From positions 115,322-179,321 of the forward strand of contig RXJH01000004.1 in NCBI GenBank assembly GCA_003987725.1: a DNA stretch of 64,000 nucleotides. The letters run 5' to 3'. The DNA comes from Hyphomicrobium sp. (lineage in GTDB: Bacteria > Pseudomonadota > Alphaproteobacteria > Rhizobiales > Hyphomicrobiaceae). Below the pieces are notes generated by a model. It was not told the origin of the DNA and ran no database searches. It worked only from the letters and a program-made list of their open reading frames with translations. The translations under genes were made by a program, and so were the position numbers. Each line of letters starts with the position of its first letter. The stretch's first letter is position 1. Shown here piece by piece: positions 18,973-55,849 of this stretch.

Positions 18973-19001
18973 TTGACGAAGCATAGTCGCTCACTTATCG
19001 A
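18973..19001 (+). promoter_or_regulatory. Sigma-70-type promoter of the cobW operon
   Basis: TTGACG (18973-18978) and TATCGA (18996-19001) are separated by 17 bases. Transcription would start near 19008, just before the riboswitch, which fits well. Confidence 0.55.
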
Positions 19002-19008
19002 TGGTGAG

Positions 19009-19165
19009 GACGGTCCCTCGCAAGAGGGTTCAAAGGGAATGCGGTATCAACTCCGCAGCTGCCCCCGCAACTGTTAGCGGTGAGCGCTGGCGATATGACC
19101 ACTGGGCGATACCCGGGAAGGTCGCCAGCCGCCGAGACCCGTGAGCCAGGAGACCTGCCGTCTCA
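19009..19165 (+). promoter_or_regulatory. Cobalamin (B12) riboswitch
   Basis: The leader carries the conserved blocks of the cobalamin riboswitch in order: AGGGAATGCGGT, the B12-box core CCGCAGCTGCCCCCGCAACTG, the GACCACTGG stem with GGGAAGG, then GTGAGCCAGGAGACCTGCC closing the pattern. It reads toward cobW, 127 bases downstream. Binding of adenosylcobalamin is expected to turn the operon off, by hiding the cobW ribosome binding site or by termination; no clear intrinsic terminator is seen, so translational control is more likely. Confidence 0.93.
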
Positions 19166-19291
19166 GATCGTTTTTCCAACCGTCGCCGGTGGGGCGAGAA
19201 AGGTTAACATGCACTTCAGCATCCTTCGCGCACTTCATTGCGCGCCAATCCAACGTGCGCCCGATTTCCACGGAACCTCGGAGTTCTTCCA

Positions 19292-30133: not shown

Positions 30134-31456
30134 ATGCCCGAAGCATTGACGTTGCCGCCAGGATTGATGATCGCGGCGCCGCGCTCGGGTTCGGGGAAGA
30201 CGACCGTCACGCTCGGCCTGCTGCGCGCGCTCGTCCGGCGCGGTCTTGCGGTGCAGCCGTTCAAATGCGGACCGGACTACATCGATCCGGCATTCCACGC
30301 CGTGGCGGCGGCTCGCCCGTCCTACAACATCGACAGCTGGGCGATGAGCTTCGATCGTGCGGCCGATATTTTGTCGCGTTCGTCGAATGGGGCGAATGTC
30401 GTCGTTTGCGAAGCGTTGATGGGTCTCTTCGACGGCGTTTCCAAAGCGGGGGCCTGGGGCAACGGCGCCAGCGCCGATATCGCGGCGAAAACGGGCTGGC
30501 CCGTCATTCTCGTGCTCGATGTTTCCGGCCAATCGCAAACGGCCGCGGCCGCCGCTCGTGGTTTTCAAGGGTTTCGAGACGGCGTGACGATCGCCGGTGT
30601 CATCCTCAATCGGGTGGGCAGTCCGCGCCATGTCCGTTTTGCGTCGGAGGCGCTGGAGGCCGCCGGGCTTCCGGTCGTCGGGGCCTTGCCGCGGGAAAAC
30701 AACGTCGTCCTGCCGGAGCGGCATTTGGGGTTGGTGCAGGCCGAGGAGACGGCGGAGATCAACGCCCGGCTCGAGGCGTTGGCAGATTTCATAGAGACGC
30801 ACGTGGACGTCGGCAGGCTTCTCCAGCTCGCGGTGCCGGGATCGGTGGCGCAAGGAGCGCGTCCGAAGATCAAGCCGCCTGCGCAGCGTATCGCTCTCGC
30901 GAGGGATGCCGCCTTCTCGTTCGTCTATCCGCATCTGCTGGAAGGCTGGCGCGCGGCCGGTGCCGAAATCATTCCGTTCTCACCGCTTGCGGACGAAGCG
31001 CCCGATCGCGAATCCGATCTTGTCTGGTTGCCTGGTGGGTATCCGGAGCTTCACGCGGGTGCATTGGCGAATGCCGGTCGTTTCAGGTCGGCCCTCACCA
31101 CATTTGCGCAGTCGCGGCCGGTTCACGGCGAGTGCGGCGGGTACATGGCGCTTGGTGCCGGCCTCGTCGATGCCGAGGGTCAGCGCCACCAGATGTTGGG
31201 ACTTCTGGGGCTCGAAACATCATTCGCAAACCGGAAAATGAACCTCGGGTACCGGCTGGCGGAGCTGGTCGCGGACTGTCCGTTGGGCGGCGCCGGGGAG
31301 CTTTTGATGGGGCACGAGTTTCATTATGCGAGCGTGCTGGCCGCGCCTGATGAGCCCCTTTTCCGATTGCGGAATTCGGACGGCGAGGCCCTTTCGGGGG
31401 GCGGCAGCCGTCGAGGGCACGTCACGGGGTCGTTTTTTCATTTTATCGATAAATAA
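30134..31456 (+). CDS. cobB: Hydrogenobyrinic acid a,c-diamide synthase
   Basis: CobB amidates the a and c acetate groups before cobalt insertion, with glutamine and ATP. The 440-residue protein has the ATPase loop IAAPRSGSGKTTVTLGLL, FKCGPDYIDPAFH, VVCEALMGLFDGV, and the C-terminal amidotransferase motif VHGECGGYMALGAGLVD with the Cys nucleophile. Last gene of the riboswitch-led operon. cobF and cobS/cobT, needed for the aerobic route, are not in this window. Confidence 0.96.
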   Translation: MPEALTLPPGLMIAAPRSGSGKTTVTLGLLRALVRRGLAVQPFKCGPDYIDPAFHAVAAARPSYNIDSWAMSFDRAADILSRSSNGANVVVCEALMGLFDGVSKAGAWGNGASADIAAKTGWPVILVLDVSGQSQTAAAAARGFQGFRDGVTIAGVILNRVGSPRHVRFASEALEAAGLPVVGALPRENNVVLPERHLGLVQAEETAEINARLEALADFIETHVDVGRLLQLAVPGSVAQGARPKIKPPAQRIALARDAAFSFVYPHLLEGWRAAGAEIIPFSPLADEAPDRESDLVWLPGGYPELHAGALANAGRFRSALTTFAQSRPVHGECGGYMALGAGLVDAEGQRHQMLGLLGLETSFANRKMNLGYRLAELVADCPLGGAGELLMGHEFHYASVLAAPDEPLFRLRNSDGEALSGGGSRRGHVTGSFFHFIDK

Positions 31457-31536: not shown

Positions 31537-31561
31537 GGAACTTTTTAGAACCCTGCGCATT
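31537..31561 (+). promoter_or_regulatory. EcfG-type promoter of nepR-ecfG
   Basis: GGAAC (31537-31541), 16 bases, CATT (31558-31561). The published alphaproteobacterial stress-sigma consensus is GGAAC, 16-17 bases, CGTT, also written GGAAC-N18/19-TT. It lies about 80 bp before the nepR start, so the sigma factor would control its own operon. Confidence 0.65.
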
Positions 31562-31639: not shown

Positions 31640-31849
31640 ATGGGCACAGGCAGTGATCCCAAGAGAGGGGATTCAGCGACTATGCAGGCACCGTTACCGG
31701 CCGAGCTTCAGGGGCAGATTGGCCAGCGTTTGAGAGAGGCCTACATCGAACTTATCAACGAGCCAGTCCCCGATCGGTTCGTTGTGCTCCTGCAAAAACT
31801 GAAACAACGCGAGGAGCAGAGTAAGGAGGATGGTCGTGACGAAAAGTGA
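31640..31849 (+). CDS. nepR: NepR-family anti-sigma factor
   Basis: The 69-residue cytosolic protein is the anti-sigma factor of the general stress response; it holds EcfG inactive and is released when phosphorylated PhyR binds it. The NepR core is visible as IGQRLREAYIELINEPVPDRFVVLLQKL in two parts around the invariant Pro, followed by a charged tail. ATG 31640 is taken, but ATG 31682 (55 residues) has a better upstream AGAGGGG and is a real alternative. It overlaps ecfG by 14 bases. Confidence 0.92.
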   Translation: MGTGSDPKRGDSATMQAPLPAELQGQIGQRLREAYIELINEPVPDRFVVLLQKLKQREEQSKEDGRDEK

Positions 31850-32390
31850 CGACGACCTGCAAGCTCTCCTGATCGCGGCCGTTCCCAATTTGCGCGCATT
31901 TGCGAATTCGCTTTGCGGCGACCCGACGCGTGCCGACGATCTGGTGCAGGATACGCTCGTCAAGGCCTGGTCCAATCTGGATGGTTTCGAAAAAGGCTCG
32001 AACCTGAAGGCCTGGCTCTTCACGATCCTGCGCAATACCTACTTTTCCGAACTTCGGAAGCGCCGTCGTGAGGTCGAGGATGCGGACGGGGCGATGGCGG
32101 AGCGCATGTCGGTTCTGCCCGAGCAACATGTTCATATGGATCTCGTCGACTTCAAGAAAGCGTTCGGCGTCTTGAGCGATGATCAGAAGGAAGTTCTGCT
32201 GCTCGTCGGTGCGGAAGGCTTCTCTTACGAAGAGGCAGCCGAGATCACCAACGCTGCAGTCGGTACGGTCAAAAGCCGAGTCAATCGCGCCCGTGTGGCC
32301 TTGAACAAGGCCCTCGGTCTCGAAGCCGGCGAGAGCATCAATCCCAATGGCGAATTCGCCGGAATTACGCGAGCTGTGGGGCGAGGTTAG
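31836..32390 (+). CDS. ecfG: EcfG-type (ECF15) general stress response sigma factor
   Basis: The product has 184 residues. Region 2 is clear (RADDLVQDTLVKAWSNLDGF, then LKAWLFTILRNTYFSELRKRR) and region 4 reads LSDDQKEVLLLVGAEGFSYEE with VGTVKSRVNRAR. The frame also allows ATG 31830, but the AAGGAGG at 31823-31829 is then too close; GTG 31836 is six bases from it and is preferred. Overlap with nepR gives translational coupling of sigma and anti-sigma. It directs stress genes through the GGAAC-N16/17-CGTT promoters found nearby. Confidence 0.95.
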   Translation: MTKSDDDLQALLIAAVPNLRAFANSLCGDPTRADDLVQDTLVKAWSNLDGFEKGSNLKAWLFTILRNTYFSELRKRRREVEDADGAMAERMSVLPEQHVHMDLVDFKKAFGVLSDDQKEVLLLVGAEGFSYEEAAEITNAAVGTVKSRVNRARVALNKALGLEAGESINPNGEFAGITRAVGRG

Positions 32391-32516: not shown

Positions 32517-33323
32517 ATGTCGATAGCCGAATCCATTGCTCCCCATTTGCCGTATCTGCGCCGCTACGCACGATCGCTGACGGGAAGCCAACAGTCCGGT
32601 GACAATTACGTCGCGGCCGTCCTGGAGGCGTTGATTGCCGATTCCGAGGCGTTCGACAAATCGATTGCTCCGCGAGTCGCGCTCTATCGCACTTTCACCA
32701 AGGTTTGGAATTCGCTGGCCGTAAATCGCATTCCTGACGAGGTTCGACAACTTGATAAGCCGCTTCCGGAGCGGCGGTTGGAGTCGATCACCCCACTTCC
32801 GAGACAGGCATTCCTTCTCGTCTCGGTCGAAGGCTTCTCCACGGCGGAGGCAGCACAGGTTCTTGATGTCACTCCGGCGCACGTGACCGAGCTTCTGCAG
32901 ATGGCGGGCGCAGAAATTGCCGAACAACTTTCGGCGGATGTTCTCATTATCGAGGACGAACCGCTGATCGCGATGGACCTGGAAGCGCTTGTCGTCGATA
33001 TCGGGCATCGCGTGCAGGGCGTCGCCCGGACGCATCAGGAAGCCGTGGCAGAGGTTGCGAAAAAAGCGCCGTCGCTCGTTCTCGCCGATATTCATCTCGC
33101 TGACGGAAGCTCGGGACTCGAGGCGGTGAACGAAATCCTCGAGACGATCAGCGTTCCGGTTATTTTCATCACCGCATTCCCGGAGCGCTTGCTGACGGGG
33201 ACAAAGCCGGAGCCCGTGTTTCTCATCACGAAGCCTTTCGAGCCTGCGGTCGTGAAGGCAATGATCAGCCAGTCGTTGTTCTTCGGTCTCAGATCGAAAA
33301 AATCCGGTCAACGCGCGGCCTGA
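32517..33323 (+). CDS. phyR: PhyR, anti-anti-sigma response regulator
   Basis: The product has 268 residues. The N-terminal half (about 1-130) mimics an ECF sigma factor (PYLRRYARSLTGSQQSGDNYV; LPRQAFLLVSVEGFSTAEAAQVL). The C-terminal half is a receiver with DVLIIEDEPLIAMDL, the phosphoacceptor Asp in SLVLADIHLADGSSG, a Thr in VIFITAFPERLL and the conserved Lys in ITKPFEP. When phosphorylated, the sigma-like half binds NepR and frees EcfG. An RBS-like ACGAGG is seven bases from ATG 32517, just after a small TCTCG...CGAGA hairpin. No GGAAC-type promoter is seen upstream. Confidence 0.97.
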   Translation: MSIAESIAPHLPYLRRYARSLTGSQQSGDNYVAAVLEALIADSEAFDKSIAPRVALYRTFTKVWNSLAVNRIPDEVRQLDKPLPERRLESITPLPRQAFLLVSVEGFSTAEAAQVLDVTPAHVTELLQMAGAEIAEQLSADVLIIEDEPLIAMDLEALVVDIGHRVQGVARTHQEAVAEVAKKAPSLVLADIHLADGSSGLEAVNEILETISVPVIFITAFPERLLTGTKPEPVFLITKPFEPAVVKAMISQSLFFGLRSKKSGQRAA

Positions 33324-33999: not shown

Positions 34000-34056
34000 C
34001 TTAAAGGCTTCGCTAGCCTGCGTGGCGATTACACAATTCCGGTCACGCAATCGGAG

Positions 34057-34230
34057 TCAGGCCCGGCGGATGAAACTCGCGACGATGGAGACGATGAAGA
34101 GTACGATTGCGACCCAGAAGATGAGCCGGGCTCCTTCCATCGCGGTGCCGGCGACTCCGCCAAATCCTAAAGCCGCGGCCACAATCGCTACGATCAAGAA
34201 GACGATTGCGTAGTAAAGCAGGTTTCCCAT
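34057..34230 (-). CDS. DUF1328 (YtjA-like) small membrane protein, EcfG target
   Basis: This gene encodes 57 residues, starting [20 protein letters not shown] and ending SFIRRA. It has two hydrophobic helices joined by a [13 protein letters not shown] loop, the pattern of the DUF1328/YtjA family of inner-membrane proteins often induced in stress. Function unknown. A textbook EcfG-type promoter ends 36 bases before the ATG and a terminator follows the stop, so it is a single-gene unit in the stress island. Confidence 0.88.
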
Positions 34231-34266
34231 AGGCTCCGATCCATTTCCAAAAATGCACCTTGGGAG

Positions 34267-34292
34267 AACGTGCGCCGAAACCGCGCGGTTCC
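34267..34292 (-). promoter_or_regulatory. EcfG-type promoter of the DUF1328 gene
   Basis: On the minus strand: GGAAC (34292-34288), 17 bases, CGTT (34270-34267), an exact match to the GGAAC-N16/17-CGTT consensus. The ATG is at 34230. Confidence 0.75.
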
Positions 34293-34335
34293 GAATTACG
34301 GCGAAGGTAGGGCGGGATCAGCCTCGAATGCCGCA

Positions 34336-34383
34336 CAAAAAAATTAGAGTCCGCGCCGCTCGGGGGGAAGCGGTCGCGAACTC
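34336..34383 (-). terminator. Strong rho-independent terminator of the predicted stress small RNA
   Basis: On the minus strand GAGTTCGCGACCGCT pairs with AGCGGCGCGGACTC around a CCCCCC-containing loop: fourteen pairs with one bulged A. TAATTTTTTT follows directly. No coding sequence lies upstream on this strand within the preceding 100 bases, so it must end a non-coding transcript. Confidence 0.85.
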
Positions 34384-34448
34384 TTTTAAGTGACGCCGTA
34401 CCCTGGGCCACGGGGGAGTGGGGAGGGAGTATTTGGGTACGGTCACAG
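34337..34448 (-). ncRNA. Predicted EcfG-dependent small RNA with C-rich anti-Shine-Dalgarno loop
   Basis: No protein gene occupies 34231-34689. A perfect EcfG-type promoter (34479-34455) and the terminator at 34383-34336 face the same way and define a transcript of about 112 nt. Its 5' half folds: GTGACCGTACCC (34446-34435) pairs with GGGTACGGCGTCAC (34403-34390), twelve pairs with a two-base bulge. The 31-base loop contains CTCCCTCCCC and ACTCCCCC, able to pair with GGAGG-type ribosome binding sites. Rhizobial and Rhodobacter stress RNAs with CCUCC-rich loops are known, so this could be a member or an analogue. Exact ends, expression and targets are inferred. Confidence 0.72.
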
Positions 34449-34454
34449 TGGGAC

Positions 34455-34479
34455 AACGTAGCGAGCGTTAGCGGGTTCC
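34455..34479 (-). promoter_or_regulatory. EcfG-type promoter of the predicted small RNA
   Basis: On the minus strand: GGAAC (34479-34475), 16 bases, CGTT (34458-34455), an exact consensus match. The first protein gene downstream is 225 bases away and has its own promoter and an intervening terminator. Confidence 0.75.
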
Positions 34480-34689: not shown

Positions 34690-36231
34690 ATGTCGTGGCA
34701 TTGCATACACTTTCCGTCGATCATTCTTAGCTGGGTTATGGGCCGCCAAAACATATCGCGGAGATTTGCAGCGTTCCTGACGTCGAATGCGACGAGAACG
34801 TTGTTGGTCTGGGTTTCAATCGCAGTTCTATCCGGGCTCGCAGCAATCGTTGCTTGGCAATGGACGGTGACGGCTGCAGATCGCGTTGCTCAGACGCTGC
34901 TCTATCAGCAAGGTCTGACGAAGTGGCTGAGTGCCGCACAGGATCTTGAGATCGCGCAACGCGGATATCTGCTTACACGAGATCCAGCCTATCTCGCGTC
35001 CTATGAAGCCGCGAAGAAGTCCGTGGACGGCATTCACACCGATTTCACCCGGATCGGACGCAACAACCATCAGCTGCTGGCTGCGATCGAGGAGGTTCAC
35101 AAGGCGCAGCAGGAACACCTGTCGGCGATCGACAAGAGCATTTCAGCCGCGGCGAAGGATCCAAATCCACCTGGTCAGCTCTCAGAGAACAGTCTCGACA
35201 TCGCGCTGTCGAACAGGTTGCGCGATGAGATCGCCGCCGCCAGCCGGCAGCAACAACTTCTCTTCGAAGAGCGTGTCGCTCAATTTCACAACCAGAGTTT
35301 CTGGCTCCTGATCGCGATGCTCGCGATCTTGCTGGCCTGCGCTGCGTTGGCGATGGTTGCCTTGATCCGCGAGCGACAACGCGTGGAAGCGCTGGAGATT
35401 ACAGCCCTGACGCTGACGTCAACAAACCGGTCGCTGGAAGCGCGAGTCAAGGCGCGCACTGAAGAGCTCGCTATCGAGCGCGATCGGGCGGAAGCGGAAC
35501 GGGAGCGCGCAGAAGCGCTGCTCAGGGATGTTACGCACCGCATCGGCAATACGCTTTCGCTCGTCGTCGGCTTTATCAATCTGCATATCCGTCACACGTC
35601 TGATCCGCGATCCTTGAAAACGCTAACGGGTGCTCGGGATCGCATTCATGCAATCGCGAGCGCGCAGCGGCGGATCAATGTAGTCAACGATCTCGAGCTC
35701 GTGCGCATCGACACGCTCATGCAAGCGGTTCTGGACGATGTGGCGGAAACGGCCGGAGAAAGCCGGATTCATTTGACGATCGAGGTGCCGCCGCTTCTGG
35801 CGCCCGCGCAAGTCGCGACGTCGCTCTGCGTGCTGGCGCAAGAATTCGTCGTCAATTCATTCAAGCATGCTTTCGGCGAGGACGGCGCGGGCGAGGTCAA
35901 TGTCCGGTTGAGGCAAACGGGCGAAACCGGAGCGGAACTGATTATCGAGGATGACGGCTACGGGATCGGTGCCAGTCTTTATGGGGGCATCCCGAGTGAT
36001 GCCGACAAAATGCTGCAGGCCAACGCGAGCAATGGGGGCGAGGGACTGGGAACGAAAATCGCGGCTCTCCTGACGCGGCAGTTTTCGGGAGCCATCACCT
36101 ATGAACCCGTGAGGCAGGGGCATGCGAGACCGGGCACGCGGGTCTCGATCAAATTGCCGGAGTTAGCACTCACGGTGCCGAGCGATGAAGTTTCAACTAC
36201 GGAAAAAGGACTGAAGAGGACGCCCGCGTGA
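34690..36231 (+). CDS. CHASE3-domain sensor histidine kinase (HisKA_2 type)
   Basis: The product has 513 residues (499 if ATG 34738 is used; neither has a good ribosome binding site). A membrane segment near residues 40-62 (VWVSIAVLSGLAAIVAWQW), a periplasmic CHASE3-like helical domain, and a second segment near 205-228 (FWLLIAMLAILLACAALAMV) are followed by a coiled coil and kinase core. The phospho-His lies in RDVTHRIGNTLSLVVGF, the N-box in EFVVNSFKHAFG, and G1 in IIEDDGYGIG. It lacks the WxE motif of HWE kinases, so HisKA_2 fits better. Within the stress island it is a candidate input kinase for PhyR. Confidence 0.9.
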   Translation: MSWHCIHFPSIILSWVMGRQNISRRFAAFLTSNATRTLLVWVSIAVLSGLAAIVAWQWTVTAADRVAQTLLYQQGLTKWLSAAQDLEIAQRGYLLTRDPAYLASYEAAKKSVDGIHTDFTRIGRNNHQLLAAIEEVHKAQQEHLSAIDKSISAAAKDPNPPGQLSENSLDIALSNRLRDEIAAASRQQQLLFEERVAQFHNQSFWLLIAMLAILLACAALAMVALIRERQRVEALEITALTLTSTNRSLEARVKARTEELAIERDRAEAERERAEALLRDVTHRIGNTLSLVVGFINLHIRHTSDPRSLKTLTGARDRIHAIASAQRRINVVNDLELVRIDTLMQAVLDDVAETAGESRIHLTIEVPPLLAPAQVATSLCVLAQEFVVNSFKHAFGEDGAGEVNVRLRQTGETGAELIIEDDGYGIGASLYGGIPSDADKMLQANASNGGEGLGTKIAALLTRQFSGAITYEPVRQGHARPGTRVSIKLPELALTVPSDEVSTTEKGLKRTPA

Positions 36232-36257: not shown

Positions 36258-36704
36258 CTAAGGCTTGCCGAATGAGCCGACTTTCCAGCGCGCAGCATAG
36301 GCGGGCGAGAGCTCCAAGGCCCGGGGTTTAGGGCGCTGCGAACTTCCCATTTGCATGCAGTCAACGACGAATGTAATCGCCGATTTCACCGAGCGTTCGG
36401 AATAGGGTTTGATGATGATGCCGCAGGCAGACGAGAAGTCTTGCGGTATTTGCTGTGGATTCGATGTCGTGAAAATCACTGTGGCATGGGCGTCTTCACA
36501 GAGGTGCCGCGCGACGGCCGGTCCGGTTATGCCATCGCTCAGATGAACGTCGACGAGTGCCAGATCGCAACTCGTCATCTGTGCGAGTGTAAGTGCCCGA
36601 CGTGACGATCCGGCAATGCCGACGACTTGATGGCCCAAGTCTGTGACGATCGCTTCCAGCTCGTCAGCGACAATCGGTTCGTCTTCGGTGATCAGAATCT
36701 TCAT
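36258..36704 (-). CDS. Single-domain response regulator, EcfG-controlled
   Basis: The product has 148 residues: a receiver domain (MKILITEDEPIVADELEAIV; phosphoacceptor Asp in CDLALVDVHLSDG; VIFTTSN with the switch Thr; IIKPYSE with the Lys) and a short basic tail with no output domain. It resembles the PhyR receiver, so it may compete for or relay phosphate in the stress cascade. ATG 36704 is chosen because the longer frame to 36740 would run into the promoter -10. It converges on the CHASE3 kinase gene (26-bp gap). Confidence 0.9.
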   Translation of the reverse strand: MKILITEDEPIVADELEAIVTDLGHQVVGIAGSSRRALTLAQMTSCDLALVDVHLSDGITGPAVARHLCEDAHATVIFTTSNPQQIPQDFSSACGIIIKPYSERSVKSAITFVVDCMQMGSSQRPKPRALELSPAYAARWKVGSFGKP

Positions 36705-36738
36705 CACGCCCCCGCGTGCCATTGTCCCACTCGGCGAC

Positions 36739-36763
36739 AACGTACGGATGCTGGCGTGGTTCC
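36739..36763 (-). promoter_or_regulatory. EcfG-type promoter of the single-domain response regulator
   Basis: On the minus strand: GGAAC (36763-36759), 16 bases, CGTT (36742-36739), an exact consensus match 34 bases before ATG 36704. The HWE kinase gene ends only 31 bases upstream, so the regulator can be made with or without read-through. Confidence 0.75.
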
Positions 36764-54854: not shown

Positions 54855-54901
54855 ATTATTGGGTTTTCGCTGAAGGCGTTCCCTAAACGGACTTCTTTAC
54901 C

Positions 54902-55849
54902 ATGAGGTTCCTATTGGCCCCCGGAGTTTCCGCTCCTGTTCCGATTTTGCCCGCCGGGAAAGATGCGGTTGTCGAAAATTTGCGTTCGCGCATTCTGCAT
55001 ATCGAGCGGCATGCGCCGCGCCGCGGTGCGGTTGCCCCGGAAAGTGCCTCCTTGCCCCGGACGGGACGGCGCGGGGTCTCTTGGGAGCTTGGCTGCCTAG
55101 CGTGCGACGACCTCCTGCCGAGAGGGCTTGAGACGAATGCCCTCCATGAAATCAAGGGGCAGTCTTCTGTCAGTCGCGGCGCTTCGGCGGCGGATTGGAT
55201 GGCGGGGATCGGTTTTGCGGCGCGTCTTGCTGTCCGCCGGATCGATACCTTCGCGGGGGCGCCAGGCGCGAATGCGTCCGCGCCGCTGGTGAAGCCCTGG
55301 GTGCTCTGGTGCTGGCCGCGGCAGCTTGCGGGCGAATTCGGATCTCCGTCGGCCGCGGGTTTGGCGAGCCTCGGCCTCGATCCGTCGCGCCTCCTGATCG
55401 TCGAGACGGCGCGTGCGGGCGACGCGCTGAATGCGATCGAAGAGAGCCTGCGGGCTCAAAGCCTCGCCGTCGTCATCGGCGTTGTCGAAGAGGCGGAGTT
55501 GACGCCGGCGCGCCGCTTGAGCCTTGCGGCCGGGGAAACGGCGACGCCTTGTCTTCTCGTCACACATCCTGCCTCCGAGCCCGCCGGAGCAACGGCCACA
55601 CGATGGCGCGTGAAGCGGATTGCAAGTGCAGCCCAATCTTTCGAGCCGCGGGCGCCCGGAGCTCCGCGCTTTTCGATCGCGCTAGAGCGCTGCCGGGCGC
55701 GTCCCGAAAGCGTCGCGCGCCCCCCTATGTTTCTGGAGTGGAACGATGAAACGCGTCGTTTCGATTTGGCTTCCGTCGTGGCCGATCTTCCGGCTCAAAC
55801 GCGCGGAGCCGGCAGGCCTCCCGTCGGGGCAGCCGTTCGCTCTTATTGA
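54902..55849 (+). CDS. imuA: ImuA, SOS mutagenesis accessory protein
   Basis: The product has 315 residues. It belongs to the ImuA (SulA/RecA-like) family that pairs with ImuB and DnaE2 in damage tolerance; recognisable parts are VENLRSRILHIERHAP, LHEIKGQSSVSRGASAADWMAGIGFAARL, PWVLWCWPRQLAGEFGSPSAAGL, RLLIVETARAGDALNAIEESL and WRVKRIAS. There is no Walker A motif like RecA's. It is the first gene of the SOS cassette and overlaps imuB by 104 bases. Confidence 0.9.
   Translation: MRFLLAPGVSAPVPILPAGKDAVVENLRSRILHIERHAPRRGAVAPESASLPRTGRRGVSWELGCLACDDLLPRGLETNALHEIKGQSSVSRGASAADWMAGIGFAARLAVRRIDTFAGAPGANASAPLVKPWVLWCWPRQLAGEFGSPSAAGLASLGLDPSRLLIVETARAGDALNAIEESLRAQSLAVVIGVVEEAELTPARRLSLAAGETATPCLLVTHPASEPAGATATRWRVKRIASAAQSFEPRAPGAPRFSIALERCRARPESVARPPMFLEWNDETRRFDLASVVADLPAQTRGAGRPPVGAAVRSY

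Follow-up and report, generated by a model that had tools for sequence, protein, structure and literature searches.

The window, i.e., the whole 64,000-nucleotide stretch of DNA analysed, contains a nepR-ecfG-phyR cluster on its plus strand. It comprises nepR (31640..31849), coding for an anti-sigma factor (Pfam NepR, 3e-14), ecfG (31830..32390), coding for the general stress sigma factor (Pfam sigma-70 regions 2 and 4; the name EcfG was assigned from the locus), and phyR (32517..33323), coding for the anti-anti-sigma response regulator (Pfam PhyR_sigma2, PhyR_sigma-like, and Response_reg). About 1 kb from phyR lies a predicted small RNA (34337..34448, minus strand), delimited by its promoter and terminator, its fold, and the conservation of the unit. 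Its downstream neighbor is a 57-aa frame recognized from its translation (34057..34230, minus strand), coding for a small membrane protein that we take to be DUF1328-like. The divergent upstream neighbor is a CHASE3/HisKA_2 histidine kinase gene (34690..36231, plus strand; Pfam), followed by a response regulator gene (36258-36740), before which there is an exact EcfG-type promoter (36739-36763, minus strand), and, further on, by an HWE kinase. Near nepR, a match to the EcfG-type pattern with one mismatch occurs at 31537. Altogether, the window holds four matches to the EcfG-type pattern vs. 1.45 expected, and 5 of 100 shuffled sequences also reached four. A pattern match is by itself weak evidence, and additional evidence was needed. 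Three of the four matches lie at the stress locus within a span of 2.5 kb; the fourth, an exact GGAAC-N17-CGTT (54886-54911, minus strand), is located outside it. Elsewhere in the window we noted a cobalamin riboswitch (18994-19176, plus strand; Rfam RF00174, 123 bits) and, further on, a CobB/CobQ-like protein (30134-31456). The same genome (G000) has a second phyR locus with a divergent ecfG (L058, contig C11 near 717561), alongside which no C-loop RNA was accepted.

The promoter of the RNA (34455..34479, minus strand) is an exact match to GGAAC-N16-CGTT, just as the original prediction had stated. The start of the RNA is taken to lie 6-8 nt past the -10 box and its end was placed at the T tract. 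Folding of 34449-34337 gave a minimum free energy of -47.2 kcal/mol (z = -7.2), and none of 200 shuffled sequences was equally stable. The first hairpin (34390..34446, minus strand) has 12 pairs, a 2-nt bulge and a 31-nt C-rich loop, in agreement with the earlier description; in addition, this large loop holds a further 4-pair hairpin (CCAC / GTGG; 34408-34421, minus strand), whose apex is the second half of the C-rich segment CUCCCUCCCCACUCCCCC. This segment (34412..34429, minus strand), distinguished by its loop identity and by the alignment of the genus, is the proposed seed. The terminator hairpin (34346..34384, minus strand) is formed by 16 pairs about a 1-nt bulge, not by the 14 pairs counted previously, while the T tract that had been reported to follow it, TAATTTTTTT, is present (34337..34345, minus strand). 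The terminator loop, CCCCCC (34362-34367, minus strand), makes a second C-rich loop. The RNA is overlapped by a 137-aa frame with a TTG start (34043-34456). Among 13 members of the genus the hairpin region varies from 57 to 64 nt in length steps other than three, and hence this frame is not conserved as coding.

Searches with Rfam 15 revealed no family above its curated threshold over the window RNA; below the thresholds there were NEAT1_2 (15.1 of 60 bits), Leu_leader (13 of 50) and nothing else. Over copies of the RNA in seven other loci Rfam reported tRNAs only and no family covering the RNA. For the stretches tested, covariance models (see below) now exist where Rfam had none. Two C-rich loops within one short RNA in this genus could point to a cuckoo/CcsR-type alphaproteobacterial RNA with repeated CCUCCUCCC loops. 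We regard this reading as very unlikely, as CCUCCUCCC is absent, the loops being CUCCCUCCCCACUCCCCC and CCCCCC, no Rfam match exceeded its threshold, and the promoter is of the EcfG type. CcsR of Rhodobacter has an RpoH promoter. Rhizobiales RNAs with anti-Shine-Dalgarno loops, SmelA075 and SmelA099, contain CCUCCUCCC in every one of their hairpins, of which there are three and four, respectively (PMC3927594). The window RNA resembles them and CcsR/cuckoo as a short alphaproteobacterial RNA with C-rich hairpin loops, but differs in having none of the CCUCCUCCC motifs of SmelA075/cuckoo-type loops.

The unit was taken as real because it is conserved in relatives. Seventeen of 22 genomes of the genus carry the promoter, hairpin and terminator beside nepR-ecfG-phyR; this number is made up of 16 of the 18 loci read after a pattern search of the 22 genomes (the pattern sites of G152 and G289 proved to be something else), plus G344, which was found with the covariance model R2 and whose RNA adjoins phyR, ecfG and DUF1328-like genes. 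Acceptance of a member was based on its locus and its fold, the pattern count alone being weak since the reversed control also matched many genomes. In the five others, G152, G289, G350, G357, and G360, the RNA was not found; G350 gave a weak R2 match only (E 0.038), and the completeness of G357 and G360 is 84 and 88%, respectively. When 297 genomes of the order were searched by BLASTN with the RNA, eight gave matches; G000 and G177 were the only ones from the genus, and the other six matches were short. The stems drift too fast for BLASTN, and the search was therefore conducted by locus and structure instead. Among named records, the closest is the MAG SZAS-16 (L079), whose PhyR is 99% identical; L079, L196, and G353 are one genome with an identical RNA and were counted once in each of the sets of 17, 27, and 59 members given here and below.

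Alignment of 13 genus members showed a mean pairwise identity of 1.00 for the -35 box and 0.96 for the -10 box, vs. a background of 0.36 in the promoter spacer and 0.32-0.36 in the flanks. Loop 1 reached 0.80, the terminator loop 0.91, and the stems 0.66-0.87. In the same members two-sided changes occurred at 7 of 32 pairs (3 of 12 in the first hairpin and 4 of 16 in the terminator), a number attained by 3 of 500 shuffles, keeping in mind that related sequences may beat shuffles without structure. Pairing was preserved in 90.8% of the cells vs. 33-46% with slid partners, a comparison that favors the true pairing because the scored fold was drawn from the window sequence. "Further pair types" did not rise above shuffles in these 13 members (462/500). 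Selection acts on the promoter boxes, the stems and the C-rich loops.

These data also bear on whether the sequence is an independent RNA at all or a long leader, or a promoter-terminator relic, of the downstream DUF1328-like gene. That gene is adjacent, lies on the same strand and is likewise linked to the stress locus. Yet, a strong conserved terminator precedes it and it has an exact EcfG-type promoter of its own (34267-34292, minus strand). Moreover, G346, G355, and G359 keep the RNA with no DUF1328-like gene detected in the stretch fetched, and no such gene was seen within ~1.5 kb of the copies examined outside the genus. A leader or relic is thus highly improbable, the least probable of the alternatives weighed.

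For relatives outside the genus, phyR loci were collected by a genome scan based on PhyR alignment, in which the best 80 of 579, i.e., the nearest relatives, were kept. An accepted copy, with promoter, C-loop hairpin and terminator, was present in 27 of these 80 named loci. All 27 copies are downstream of phyR and convergent to it, at a distance of 136 to ~6670 bases (18 of them within 2 kb). They include 16 from Bradyrhizobium, one from Afipia and three from Alsobacter; others belong to Bauldia, Pseudolabrys, Denitrobaculum, the Hyphomicrobiales MAGs L085 and L093, a Rhizobiaceae MAG, and SZAS-16. No copy was accepted in the other 53 loci (Bosea, Mesorhizobium, Aurantimonas, Methyloceanibacter, and others), whose RNA could lie elsewhere in the genome, as gsrN of Caulobacter crescentus, the general stress small RNA discussed below, is placed away from the stress locus in the account given in sections of PMC5869019.

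As a scan with a relaxed promoter gave many false matches in coding regions, we added controls with permuted motifs. In a structure-first scan of 121 loci, 9 of 127 candidates had an exact EcfG promoter upstream, whereas none of the five permuted motifs turned up before any of the 127; when one mismatch was tolerated, the numbers were 12 vs. 2, 4, 1, 2, and 6. When an exact promoter, a terminator and an unpaired C-run were sought together in the 121 loci, 12 cases were found vs. 0, 0, 0, 0, and 1 for the permuted motifs, and 20 vs. 3, 7, 3, 3, and 7 with one mismatch.

The Bradyrhizobium-group form of the RNA, represented by 17 sequences, has an invariant loop CCCCCTGCCCC and shows two-sided changes in at least one sequence at 10 of 22 pairs; its -10 box is AGTC or CGTC, and so only near the consensus. 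The covariance model built on this form (R1) does not match the window RNA, which means that common descent across families is unsupported by sequence; its match in G177 is apparently the phyR terminator. R2 matched 38 of 103 genomes of the family at E <=0.1, while R3 matched 27 of 397 genomes of the order at 0.001 and 10 of 385 of the class at 0.01, the genome of the window and some training genomes being included in each count. Many weak matches of the models were missing a promoter or a stress-gene neighbor. Outside the genus, the R2/R3 matches L217, L219, L221, L222, and L224 had the complete layout, including GGAAC at its proper position. No promoter of the form sought was seen at the start of the matches L283, L277, L285-L288, L290-L292, L294, and L295, nor at L223, L225-L229, L231, and L232. 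Of seven class-level matches from beyond the order, a relative of phyR was nearby (1.5-kb flanks) in L324 and L325 only, and L324 has no CGTT-like -10 box. The R2 match at L124:4186 was rejected as a copy, as it precedes a coding start. Two or three R3 matches per genome were observed in G015 (L276, L293), G244, and G846 (family f15), and the exact promoters at L276 and L293 suggest multicopy C-loop small RNAs.

Loss of the RNA is possible without loss of the stress switch, as seen in two genus members and in four loci of the Bradyrhizobium group. G152 and G289 kept the phyR-nepR-ecfG locus, while their phyR is of another type, only 55-56% identical to that of the window vs. 76-98% for the 15 other carriers compared. 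In L125, L140, L142, and L152, which retain phyR and belong to the 53 named loci with no accepted copy, there is a terminator remnant only (minus strand; L125 11591-11697, L142 11247-11343, L152 near 19150, and L140 near 12370), with no promoter or C-loop hairpin, an apparent case of gene decay. L125 was accordingly rejected as a copy despite an R1 match at E 7.7e-8, and the other three likewise. The original prediction had named related genomes that keep phyR-nepR-ecfG and lose both promoter and hairpin as evidence against itself; such genomes exist in part, in the form of G152 and G289 with their different phyR type and of the four Bradyrhizobium-group loci.

In the sections concerned with GsrN, Tien, Fiebig, Crosson 2018 (eLife 7:e33684, PMC5869019) present it as a general stress small RNA of C. 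crescentus with experimental support, which activates KatG and under whose influence other proteins rise or fall. GsrN of Caulobacteraceae is stabilized by Hfq and processed to a stable 5′ isoform. GsrN-like RNAs are predicted there for Rhizobium etli, Sinorhizobium meliloti, and Brucella abortus, and further for Agrobacterium radiobacter, Rhodopseudomonas palustris, and Bradyrhizobium diazoefficiens (PMC5869019), on the basis of a near-consensus EcfG site, proximity to ecfG-nepR-phyR and intergenic transcription. The window RNA has the first two of these three. It also shares with GsrN, as portrayed in those sections, a promoter of the EcfG/sigma-T type, a size of about 100 nt and the usual place near ecfG, nepR, and phyR, and with GsrN-like RNAs an exposed C-rich loop in the 5′ part; a small hairpin beside the C-rich loop is found in the Rhizobiaceae candidates as drawn there as well (PMC5869019). 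On the other hand, its loop segment is CUCCCUCCCCACUCCCCC whereas the corresponding part of the source gives GsrN six tandem C, and the second C-rich loop atop the terminator in this genus is unlike GsrN as far as described there. The likeness rests on promoter, structure and place, not on sequence kinship. A 14-base pattern inferred from the published target sites of GsrN was found in 12 of the 385 class genomes, and in no case was the site preceded by an EcfG-type promoter within 90 bases. By its promoter, its place and its C-rich loop, the window RNA is to be classed as a GsrN-like RNA.

Computation establishes the promoter and the two-hairpin form of the RNA, as well as selection on boxes, stems and loops and its association with the stress locus. 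Promoter, conservation and linkage support the earlier proposal insofar as it assumed a small RNA that is driven by EcfG, bears a C-rich loop and is linked to phyR-nepR-ecfG. From this we consider that the RNA probably acts in trans within the general stress response, in the manner of GsrN. Stress would free EcfG via PhyR and NepR, and EcfG would transcribe an RNA of ~107 nt from the promoter at 34455-34479. The stem would keep the C-rich segments single-stranded so that these could pair with G-rich stretches of mRNAs, and such pairing may alter translation or stability of the mRNA, presumably up or down depending on the target.

The original prediction had also held that descriptions of the EcfG regulon do not usually include such a role. 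As the passages of PMC5869019 cited above already predict RNAs like GsrN next to the stress loci of other Alphaproteobacteria, and the best-studied target is activated, this claim of novelty falls. No publication on such an RNA in this group was found in the openly licensed PubMed Central literature. New relative to the parts of PMC5869019 on GsrN-like RNAs are the covariation, the genus-wide conservation and selection, the presence counts, the arrangement convergent to phyR, and a genus mostly without the link to katG. Predictions of GsrN-like RNAs outside Caulobacteraceae (Bradyrhizobium and others) formerly relied on position and promoter; conservation, covariation and selection on the promoter boxes have now been measured.

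To look at possible targets, duplex energies were calculated for seven local gene starts in 13 genomes (10 for DUF1328), the kinase and regulator starts being approximate in relatives. On average, nepR, ecfG and DUF1328 paired slightly better than shuffled loops, which they beat in 5 of 13, 8 of 13, and 6 of 10 genomes, respectively; the other four starts paired worse. The ecfG start (AAGGAGG in the window) had the lowest mean energy of the seven (-21.9 vs. -20.4 kcal/mol with shuffled loops), with values reaching -27.8. Overall, the energies at these starts reveal no clear target. They would fit a feedback RNA that, by binding of its loop to the G-rich nepR end or ecfG start within the nepR-ecfG mRNA, adjusts how much EcfG or NepR is made. 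Such a function would agree with the linkage to the stress locus and with the co-purification of nepR-sigT mRNA with GsrN in Caulobacter noted in one part of PMC5869019. However, as the ecfG start outperforms shuffled loops in no more than those eight genomes, the effect is mostly one of base composition, and we hold a feedback role to be unlikely.

The same ecfG energies could be invoked for an anti-Shine-Dalgarno repressor, the function originally assigned to this RNA, in which the CUCCCUCC loop, mimicking the 16S tail, would block ribosomes at many mRNAs under stress. Each of the 17 genus members listed does have CCTCC in its hairpin region. Against this, among the 59 listed members of the wider set CCTCC occurs in 31 and is absent from 28, including all 17 Bradyrhizobium-group members; what all 59 share is a run of five or more C. 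This set was hand-picked from several scans and is non-random; many members were chosen by the C-run rule, so that the 59/59 is partly built in, and L070 and other C-run matches in which no clear hairpin and terminator could be made out were excluded on visual inspection. Furthermore, GGGAGGGAG is not enriched: the genome has 11 sites, counting the complement of the RNA itself, vs. 12 for the reversed control, and the studied relative GsrN acts on katG as an activator, as stated in the section on that target (PMC5869019). General lowering of translation thus did not hold up, and we judge this reading to be as improbable as the feedback role. One of the GGGAGGGAG sites is at a plausible start codon, that of a PQQ dehydrogenase gene. 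In L266 a PQQ-dependent dehydrogenase gene starts behind GGGGAGGGAG (1500-1509), a 10-nt complement of the RNA loop. The PQQ dehydrogenase was rejected as a target, as the site is not conserved in the genus; it is absent at the start codons read in G344, which has the sole close orthologue (86%).

Pairing with katG and its activation are traits of GsrN that stand outside the criteria for its relatives in the sections of PMC5869019 on them. No PF00141 match, and hence no katG, was found in the genome of the window, which is 99.98% complete, and katG is therefore probably not regulated here. PF00141 gave no match in 14 of the 22 genomes of the genus, that of the window included; among the 17 carriers of the RNA, 6 have a match and 11 do not. 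In this genus the RNA is now set apart from katG, and with no match in 11 of 17 carriers, what such RNAs do in common must be something other than katG regulation. Tentatively, and with more doubt than attaches to the GsrN-like assignment itself, C-loop small RNAs convergent to phyR may be an old and widespread output of the alphaproteobacterial stress response, preserved despite the turnover of stems, seed and targets; what is selected might then be a generic poly-C pairing device instead of a single target such as katG, with two such devices in this genus, one of them on the terminator. The CCCCCC terminator loop, given its high identity within the genus, is a second possible pairing site.
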